Translations under genes and position numbers: made by a program
Part shown: positions 1-3,411 of the stretch, piece after piece
Numbering within the stretch: the first letter of the stretch is position 1
How the letters are laid out: the number at the start of each line of letters is the position of its first letter
Notes under the pieces: generated by a model
The model's database searches: none
What the model was told of the DNA's origin: nothing
What the model saw: only the letters and a program-made list of their open reading frames with translations
From: Planctomycetota bacterium
GTDB taxonomy: Bacteria > Planctomycetota > Phycisphaerae > SM23-33
Assembly (NCBI GenBank): GCA_003644335.1
Contig: QNCB01000093.1
Coordinates: 1 to 5,882 of the forward strand
DNA: 5,882 nucleotides
Direction of reading: 5' to 3'

Positions 1-62
1 AGGAGTCAGGATTCAGGAGTCAGGATTCAGGAGTCAGGATTCAGAATTGAGGAGCCAGAATG
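1..62. repeat. Left heptad-repeat array (CAGGAGT/CAGGATT), cut by the window edge
   Basis: The first 62 bases can be read as a continuous series of 7-bp units: a cut AGGAGT, then CAGGATT, CAGGAGT, CAGGATT, CAGGAGT, CAGGATT, CAGAATT, GAGGAGC and CAGAATG. The first three pairs are identical, so they also look like a perfect 14-bp repeat. The last unit contains the ATG of the following gene, and the unit before it supplies AGGAG at 50-54, five bases upstream of that ATG. The array starts inside a unit, so it probably extends beyond the window. It is the inverted counterpart of the array at 404-453. The heptad form resembles the short tandemly repeated repetitive (STRR) sequences described from cyanobacteria, but that is only a likeness in kind. 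Confidence 0.93.
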
Positions 63-452
63 AGGCCACCAGCTAGAACATTTAAGGACTTGATTGTCTG
101 GCAGAAATCGCACCAGTTCGTGCTTGCGGTTTACCGCCTGTCCCGGTCGTTTCCGAAATCCGAGACATACGGCCTGACATCACAATTTCGGCGCGCCGCT
201 GTTTCGATAGCGGCGAACATTGCCGAAGGGTTTCGCAAGCGAGGCCAAGCGGACAAAAAGCGTTTTTTCAATATTTCACAAGGCTCTGTTGAGGAATGTC
301 GATATTATTTGATTCTTGCTAAAGACCTTCAATACGGCGATGTTATCGAGATGAATCAGTTGCTGGAAGAAGTCAGTAAACTACTGAATGCCTATTCGCG
401 GAGCATTCTGACTCCTGCTCCTGACTCCTGGCTCCTGACTCCTGAATCCTGA
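60..452 (+). CDS. Four-helix-bundle protein, 23S rRNA intervening-sequence (S23/IVP) family
   Basis: This 130-residue protein matches the family found inside 23S rRNA intervening sequences and as free-standing genes (TIGR02436-type). Visible signatures, in order, are DLIVWQK (residues 10-16), FPKSETYGLTSQFRRA (31-46), SIAANIAEG (49-57) and the SQGSVEE stretch (73-79) leading into the last helices. The fold is known to be an all-helical bundle that forms multimers; its role is not settled, and nucleic-acid binding is the usual suggestion. The start is supported by AGGAG at 50-54, which belongs to the repeat array. Residues 116-130 (proline-rich, ending LLTPES) are encoded by the right-hand repeat array and are probably not part of the fold, since family members usually end near residue 115-120. 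The gene is more AT-rich than ruvA next door, which suggests separate origin. There is no rRNA and no reverse transcriptase in the window, so neither an rRNA insertion nor a diversity-generating retroelement is shown. Confidence 0.9.
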   Translation: MRPPARTFKDLIVWQKSHQFVLAVYRLSRSFPKSETYGLTSQFRRAAVSIAANIAEGFRKRGQADKKRFFNISQGSVEECRYYLILAKDLQYGDVIEMNQLLEEVSKLLNAYSRSILTPAPDSWLLTPES

Positions 453-453
453 C
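404..453. repeat. Right heptad-repeat array, inverted relative to the left array
   Basis: Read on the minus strand from 451 to 404, the units are CAGGATT, CAGGAGT, CAGGAGC, CAGGAGT, CAGGAG (one base short), CAGGAGT and CAGAATG. The innermost unit, CAGAATG, is the same as the innermost unit of the left array. A perfect 21-bp inverted match joins 433-453 with 5-25, and again with 19-39 because of the repeat period. On the plus strand the units read ACTCCTG, which includes CTCCT, complementary to Shine-Dalgarno sequences. The array encodes the tail and stop codon of the four-helix-bundle gene and ends three bases before the ruvA ATG. Confidence 0.92.
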
Positions 454-455
454 CT

Positions 456-1088
456 ATGATTACTAGAATAGCCGGACAACTTGAAGAGGTCGGCAGCAGC
501 TCGGCGGTAGTTAGCCTGGGCGGGCTGTGGTACGAGGTTATGATCGCTGCCTGCGATGTGGACAGGCTGTCGGGCAAACTCGGGCGGGAGATCGTGCTGT
601 ACACGATTCATATTATCGAGGGCGACCCGTCGCGCGGGCAGGTCGTGCCCAGGCTGATTGGTTTCCAGGCCCAGGCTGACCGGGAGTTTTTCCGGGCGTT
701 TACGAAGGTCAAAGGCATCGGGCCGAAGAAGGCTTTGCGAGCGTTGGTCAGGCCTATCGCGGAAGTTGCCGCAGCTATCGAGAACAAAGACGCCAAGTCG
801 CTGGTGGCCTTGCCTGAGATCGGCAAGCGGACAGCGGAGCTGATAATCGCCGAGCTGCACGGCAAGATGGGGCAGTTCGCTGGCGACTACGCTGCGGATG
901 GGCCTGGGGAGGCGGTGCAAAATATTTCCGAGCCTGGCATCGAAGCGGTGGCTATTCTCGTTCAGCTTGGCGAGCGACGAGCTGACGCGATGGCCCTGGT
1001 CGAGCGGGTGCTAGCCTGCGATGCCGAGATTGACTCGCCGGGGGAAATCGTCCAACACGTGTACAAGTTGAAAGCCGGCGGGGCGTAG
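456..1088 (+). CDS. ruvA: Holliday junction branch migration complex subunit RuvA
   Basis: RuvA binds four-way DNA junctions as a tetramer and loads the RuvB motor, so that branch migration can proceed before RuvC resolution. The 210 residues fit the family (about 190-205). The N-terminal OB-fold covers about residues 1-68 and begins with the typical MI-R-I-G-L pattern, including LGGLWYEV at 21-28. Two helix-hairpin-helix motifs follow: VKGIGPKKAL (85-94) and LPEIGKRTAE (119-128). The C-terminal RuvB-contacting domain is about 155-207. The loop at about 50-66 (IHIIEGDPSRGQVVPR) is longer than in E. coli RuvA. The ATG at 456 is the correct start by alignment, yet the bases before it are the CTCCTG repeat array and contain no Shine-Dalgarno sequence. 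The upstream gene stops at 452, so translation is probably coupled to it. ruvB and ruvC are not in the window. A hairpin and T-run just downstream should end the transcript. Confidence 0.97.
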   Translation: MITRIAGQLEEVGSSSAVVSLGGLWYEVMIAACDVDRLSGKLGREIVLYTIHIIEGDPSRGQVVPRLIGFQAQADREFFRAFTKVKGIGPKKALRALVRPIAEVAAAIENKDAKSLVALPEIGKRTAELIIAELHGKMGQFAGDYAADGPGEAVQNISEPGIEAVAILVQLGERRADAMALVERVLACDAEIDSPGEIVQHVYKLKAGGA

Positions 1089-3315: not shown

Positions 3316-3338
3316 GGTTGACTGGTTGATTGGTTAAC
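3316..3338. repeat. Three-copy 8-bp degenerate tandem repeat (GGTTGACT)
   Basis: GGTTGACT (3316-3323), GGTTGATT (3324-3331) and GGTTAAC (3332-3338) stand in a row. The block lies just upstream of the pheT -35 box and is the first of three adjoining short-repeat blocks in the pheT/aminotransferase gap. Confidence 0.7.
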
Positions 3339-3369: not shown

Positions 3370-3411
3370 CCTCTATCCCCTATTTAGCTATTCCCTACTT
3401 GCCTATTTATC
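3365..3411. repeat. Two-copy 23-24 bp imperfect direct repeat overlapping the aminotransferase stop codon
   Basis: Copy 1 (3365-3388) and copy 2 (3389-3411) both begin TATTCCCT and both contain CCTATTTA near the end; the middle bases differ. On the minus strand the pieces read as purine-rich AATAGG-type units of 7-8 bp. Copy 2 overlaps the last two codons and the TAG stop of the aminotransferase gene (3403-3411). Confidence 0.65.

Follow-up and report, generated by a model that had tools for sequence, protein, structure and literature searches.

Why should a gene for a small four-helix-bundle protein stand between two inverted arrays of a 7-nt word, immediately upstream of ruvA? The question is raised by the left end of a 5,882 nt stretch of DNA from a Planctomycetota bacterium (termed the window, meaning the whole stretch that was analysed). 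An initial annotation of this DNA took the layout to suggest either a mobile unit, small and non-autonomous, or an RNA element that its arrays fold, and considered that the encoded protein perhaps binds the arrays. To our knowledge, there is no accepted cause for bacterial heptad repeats and no accepted function for proteins of the PF05635 family. The features of the locus are as follows.

1–59, plus strand: left (5′) arm, tandem heptads AGGAGTC/AGGATTC, truncated by the window start (TRF, sequence).
5–39, plus strand: left member of the best inverted pair; across 35 nt it is 94% complementary to its partner at 419–453 (inverted-match comparison; 5–25 and 433–453 pair perfectly).
56–62, plus strand: inner heptad CAGAATG, which contains the start codon (sequence).
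60–452, plus strand: IVP/S23-family four-helix-bundle gene, 130 aa (PF05635, 129.1 bits versus a cut-off of 33.8; TIGR02436, 121.3 bits versus a cut-off of 24; closest PDB relative 2gsc, E=1.9e-17).
404–410, minus strand: right-arm inner heptad CATTCTG, the mirror image of CAGAATG (sequence).
404–453, minus strand: right (3′) arm, tandem heptads, an inverted copy of the left arm that overlaps the end of the gene (TRF at 408–453, inverted match).
456–1088, plus strand: host gene ruvA, 2 nt past the array; insertion context, outside the element (TIGR00084, 117.9 bits).

TRF reports the period-7 arrays at 1–53 (7.6 copies) and 408–453 (6.7 copies), and the mismatch-free portion of the inverted pair extends over 21 bp. 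Both the inverted arrays around an IVP gene and the matching inner heptads of the initial annotation are therefore confirmed. Its further statement that the gene is exactly bounded can apply at most to the right edge, the left edge being beyond view since the window begins inside the left array. Gene and arrays are interlocked at both ends. The left arm supplies the ATG and, 5 nt ahead of it, the sequence AGGAG; the last right-arm heptad contains the stop codon, so the C-terminal tail of the protein is array-encoded. The window has no Rfam match, which places the element outside a 23S rRNA gene and bears out the claim of a layout like that of rRNA intervening sequences (IVSs) away from rRNA. 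Inspection of the window ORFs revealed no transposase, integrase or reverse transcriptase gene in the element, and the other ORFs examined in the 5.9 kb, which extends to the right of the element, are ruvA and unrelated housekeeping genes. A search with defence models (PADLOC) returned no families at E≤0.1.

Two other intergenic regions of the window also carry repeats. A short 8-mer array (GGTTGACT, 2.5 copies) at 3316–3335 and a 15-mer array at 3373–3407 (TRF) occupy the gap between the phenylalanyl-tRNA synthetase beta and aminotransferase genes, and possibly represent another decayed element. Past ruvA, at 1130–1155, the sequence TTATTCCCGCGCAGGCGGGAATGAC resembles by eye a dispersed palindromic intergenic repeat.

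The layout is widespread. A scan with one genome per species found 245 relatives, and the best 80 of these (L001–L080) span at least 15 phyla by their record titles. When these 80 loci and the window are scored for a period of 7, both flanks reach a lag-7 score of at least 18 in 56 of 81 loci; 1.3% of background stretches reach that score, and at control lags so do 4 of 81 upstream and 4 of 81 downstream flanks. Forty host genomes, picked because they already hold an IVP relative, contain between 1 and 19 PF05635 matches each among the matches listed. Removal of duplicates and of short flanks from 197 HMM matches left 168 distinct elements (L174, which has no match, was dropped), for which we took the best of lags 5–12 on each flank without a threshold. 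A period of 7 or 8 scores best in 145 of the 168 upstream flanks and in 147 of the downstream ones, compared with 20 of 192 background stretches (54 ties). This holds within the clade of the window protein (73 of 87 upstream, 83 of 87 downstream) and among the divergent elements (72 and 64 of 81). Period 7 or 8 is also the best in two additional clades, the cyanobacterial relatives of L093 and the acidobacterial relatives of L127, with 27 of 30 and 28 of 30 upstream flanks and 26 of 30 and 29 of 30 downstream flanks; the loci in these clades are mostly best matches, and their sampling is biased accordingly. Heptad arrays are thus present beside other IVP genes, which contradicts the idea, raised with the initial annotation, that they might occur nowhere else.

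Inverted arrays are close to a rule among relatives. The stronger claim that every IVP gene has them was rejected, because neither flank passes the threshold in 23 of 141 elements outside the window clade (the 141 include two repeats, L377 being L093 and L407 being L127). Arrays are weak in 29 Bacteroidota loci, of which 10 have inverted arrays at a score of at least 30. PF05635 is present in 193 of 247 genomes taken from the phylum of an Aquimarina genome (G040), a survey whose loci are likewise mostly best matches and to that extent biased. Twenty further IVP loci, selected mostly for weak arrays, gave no Rfam match, and 3 of 12 candidate stretches from viral contigs encode a relative.

The two arms of an element match each other far more often than they match the arms of other elements. 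An inverted match between own arms at a score of at least 36 is seen in 47 of 87 window-clade elements versus 10% of permuted partners, in a clade that shares its unit. The corresponding counts in more distant bit-score classes are 9/13, 16/23, 3/18 and 11/27, and for members below 100 bits 30 of 68 elements have inverted own arms versus 0.2% of 541 permuted pairs at the same score. In the L093 and L127 clades the arms are inverted in 25 of 30 and 23 of 30 elements, versus 4.7% and 2.6% after permutation. Wherever both arms pass the threshold their periods are equal (77 of 77; period 7 in 72, period 8 in 4 and period 9 in 1), as they are in 74 of 75 cases in a second, overlapping set.

Divergent IVP genes are flanked by different units, among them GGGCAGT, TTTCAGT, GGGTAAA, GTCGTTA and 8- or 9-mers. 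Across genomes, protein identity correlates with unit similarity (Mantel r=0.75; 0/500 permutations). Within a genome, IVP genes less than 55% identical have a common unit in just 1 of 57 pairs (0 of 27 in one set and 3% of 30 in the other). Outside the window clade the unit is common to 71% of 31 pairs at more than 70% protein identity, to 22% of 41 pairs at 60–70%, and to 1–2% below 50%. The array unit follows the protein rather than the host genome. Consensus heptads of window-clade elements from different genomes are 79% identical (43 elements; 39% for 29 divergent elements by the same procedure), their proteins average 67% identity, and fourfold-degenerate sites are 31% identical versus 25% expected, so that word and protein are both conserved despite near-saturated silent sites. 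These patterns support, indirectly and from sequence comparison, the protein–array link that had been put forward; the covariation could also stem from co-inheritance rather than binding. We also observed that the IVP genes L073 and L160, 73% identical, share one 8-mer unit that runs in opposite directions with respect to the two genes.

Near-identical replicons reveal what is gained or lost as a unit. Site A lies in a plasmid conjugation operon and is filled in two Trichormus variabilis plasmids and one Scytonema plasmid. Six other plasmids match its flanks at 97.4–97.8% identity across 81% of the query; the three of these that were fetched have a 13-nt gap with no array and no IVP match, and a seventh plasmid (Nostoc C052) holds a shortened remnant of the element. 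The empty sequence GTAATTAAC corresponds to GTAA-element-GTAATTAAC at the filled site, with GTAA repeated at both junctions. At site B, the element lies between cas10 and cmr3 in Picosynechococcus PCC 7003, and PCC 7002 has a 12-nt gap. The copy in question (L362) is on a plasmid and stands in sense within a type III-B CRISPR operon. Site C is filled in three Nostoc plasmids (in L369 with the IVP frame split into two pieces) and is a 3-nt stop-to-start gap in five; L374, which is empty here, carries an element of a second IVP clade with a different unit one gap downstream. The site of L227 in Nostoc chromosomes is filled in three and empty in four, with no array in the empty ones. Among these sites, a target duplication can be read at site A alone, site C and the Nostoc L227 site having no clear one.

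The L020 element differs in its occurrence among Brocadia-type genomes: G043 carries it, G041 has a copy with an internal deletion, and it went undetected in G042, G045, G046 and G048; in G044 the same gap is occupied by a different IVP gene, L193, with 8-mer-like arrays. Two candidate sites were set aside. The L033 site of Nostoc T09 could not serve as a clean empty site, since other sequence is found there in six relatives. For the window copy, we fetched the ruvA loci of 20 Planctomycetota genomes, the best among 315 with a match out of 343 genomes, and the window-clade HMM found no IVP match beside ruvA in them; RuvA in these loci is just 38–45% identical, which makes them weak evidence, and they were rejected as an empty site. 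In another Planctomycetota genome (L275), an array of the heptad GAAATCG lies immediately upstream of ruvA, with no IVP match there.

The orientation of the insertions is strongly biased. For the 81 of 168 elements that were usable, with neighbours called by a longest-ORF rule, the IVP gene runs in the same direction as both of its neighbours in 57 and against both of them in 2, at median distances of 62 and 59 nt. Gene and arrays arrive jointly, in sense, between the stop and start codons of operon genes. The proposal of a mobile unit is thereby borne out for the relatives at plasmid and Nostoc chromosome sites, the window copy aside.

Arrays also occur alone. A 24-base heptad pattern was found in 24 of 40 host genomes, with up to 1570 overlapping matches (G022), and the reversed pattern gave 6 matches in total. 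Among 46 array loci fetched regardless of genes there are 33 solo arrays, 11 inverted pairs without an IVP gene and 2 with one, a count that omits four overlapping loci and in which L278, which holds the same array as L311, is entered as a pair for another array. Array pairs within 600 nt point inward without exception, and gene-less pairs surround unrelated sequences. Gene-less pairs and solo arrays together outnumber gene-bearing copies. A gene-less, array-bounded unit of 128 bp (L228, 1779–1906) interrupts an IVP gene with TA repeated at both junctions, and an internally deleted copy adjoins L009. In G030, arrays of differing units are adjacent within one intergenic region (L320, L325), as if insertions favoured places already holding an array.

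Several of these words have been described before. Passages of two studies (PMC4679880, PMC4692102) report that heptad repeats are over-represented in many bacterial genomes and propose polymerase slippage as their source. In its passages on GGGGA(C/T)T and GGGAATC, one of them denies a general association of heptads with mobile elements (PMC4692102), and a passage of the other suggests a TAACTGA-binding protein as a possible mobile element (PMC4679880). Each Nostoc IVP paralogue has its own unit, which for L461 and L466 is GGGGACT/GGGGATT. Tripled GGGAATC occurs in 1 of 369 sampled genomes of the gammaproteobacterial class. The single PF05635 match of that genome, which covers 64 of 106 model positions and may be frame-shifted, has inverted heptads of the GGGAATC type on its two sides and lies between genes that we named accB and accC by eye. 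The structure closest to the window protein, 2gsc, is presumably that of a protein of the Xanthomonas strain in which GGGAATC was studied. TAACTGA heptads are inverted around an IVP gene in L187 and stand on both sides of one, in the same orientation, in L170, and an IVP protein fits the TAACTGA-binding role suggested in the passage cited above (PMC4679880). Within the open-access literature, leaving aside subscription papers and outside preprints, we found no paper that links S23/IVP genes with heptad arrays.

The layout and its generality, the shared ends, the filled and empty sites, the sense bias and the covariation of unit and protein lead us to read the window element, with a probability of about 0.7, as a one-gene mobile cassette of about 0.4–0.45 kb that has the arrays as its ends and encodes the protein that recognises them. 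Each end would be a tandem array of a short unit (AGGAGTC in the window), inverted with respect to the other. Each IVP protein most likely recognises its own unit, as DNA or RNA, and would be needed for spread or maintenance. Strand transfer would come from a separate enzyme, since the cassette itself is recombinase-free. By inserting in sense between two genes that are transcribed together, the cassette would be expressed from the host promoter. Solo arrays and gene-less pairs would be deletion derivatives or copies mobilised in trans.

The best-placed alternative is an RNA element like the 23S rRNA IVS, in which the two arrays would base-pair once transcribed, the resulting stem would be a substrate of RNase III, the protein would be an RNA binder, and copies would spread through reverse transcription by an enzyme supplied in trans. 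PF05635 is the IVS protein family, the window protein shows sub-cut-off relatedness to the Avd proteins of diversity-generating retroelements (bAvd, 25.5 bits; NF033474, 24.6 bits), and known IVS ends are complementary and cut by RNase III, as a passage of PMC4990558 describes. The transcript also folds strongly (window 1–455, z=−8.4; none of 100 shuffles equally good), and the sense bias of 57 versus 2 is in keeping with this reading. Mismatches between arms, however, are G·U in 133 cases versus A·C in 117, an excess that is not significant (p=0.34), with 42 elements leaning to G·U and 30 to A·C; we claim no RNA-pairing signature between the arms. Furthermore, the GTAA duplication at site A fits staggered DNA cutting, and the window has no reverse transcriptase. 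The part of the initial annotation that favoured an array-folded RNA is thus left with a strong fold and mostly sense insertions in its favour and the missing G·U excess against it, and we consider such an element unlikely, if still worth weighing.

An ordinary MITE would have as its ends the terminal repeats of a known DNA transposon, with the transposase acting in trans and the IVP gene a passenger. The GTAA duplication at site A, the TA at the nested 128-bp unit and the gene-less derivatives all agree with this. In contrast, the IVP family has very many units, each common to related proteins, and a passenger would not track the ends; the protein is also conserved, at a mean identity of 67% in pairs with near-saturated fourfold sites. 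We judge this explanation improbable. Still poorer is the prospect that the heptads are simple-sequence repeats produced by slippage, as put forward in passages of PMC4692102 and PMC4679880, and that IVP genes simply happen to insert in or close to them: heptads are indeed abundant in many genomes without IVP, but empty sites have no array, the arms are inverted with unit and period in common, and the unit tracks the protein across genomes. Scarcely credible is a vertically inherited gene that is resident in the operon, serves the host and is flanked by regulatory repeats, for although the gene has the same position in four Balneola-type records (L050, L057, L059, L060), close relatives have filled and empty sites, genomes hold up to 19 copies among the matches listed, and no IVP gene stands beside ruvA in the 20 Planctomycetota loci (RuvA 38–45% identical).

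The cassette reading would explain where several short repeats of bacteria come from for which no carrier had been known. Once heptad repeats and PF05635 are linked, both become testable: for every protein a recognition word is predicted, and plasmids that are almost identical show the state before and after insertion. Should the protein read the word, the family would be a rich natural source of 120-residue proteins matched to targets of 7–9 nt. We suggest, tentatively and at somewhat less than even odds, that IVP elements form a class of recombinase-free mobile cassettes whose small oligomeric protein co-evolves with a 7–9 nt word as lock and key, that the Nostoc, Xanthomonas-type and other heptads are their spent ends, and that the 23S rRNA IVSs are copies that landed in rRNA.

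Eukaryotic foldback transposons have long inverted ends of short tandem sub-repeats, unrelated interiors and an uncertain mobilising enzyme. The IVP element is alike in its inverted sub-repeat ends; it is bacterial, measures about 0.4 kb and encodes a cognate four-helix-bundle protein. REPIN/RAYT systems and MITEs are likewise short inverted units in intergenic DNA whose dispersal depends on a factor in trans; the IVP element differs in ending in tandem arrays that change from one protein clade to another, and it contains no transposase. The cyanobacterial STRRs are published short heptad repeats. Resemblance to the described heptads TAACTGA (PMC4679880) and GGGAATC and GGGGA(C/T)T (PMC4692102) extends to unit length, intergenic position and dispersal, and these words flank some IVP genes here, whereas the passages of those papers name no S23/IVP gene. 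Avd is a distant homologue of the window protein (as judged from the profile scores and a passage of PMC10053308), which scores below the family cut-offs (24.6 versus 80 bits for NF033474, 25.5 versus 40 bits for bAvd); the adjacent reverse transcriptase and template repeat of diversity-generating retroelements are absent from the 5.9-kb window. The 23S rRNA IVS shares with the window element a PF05635 protein, an ORF between complementary ends and a similar size, given as 428–444 nt for Coxiella in a passage of PMC4990558. In contrast to the IVS, the window element lies between protein genes, outside rRNA, and the ends of IVP elements are tandem arrays of 7–9 nt units around a single IVP gene that recurs many times in a genome.
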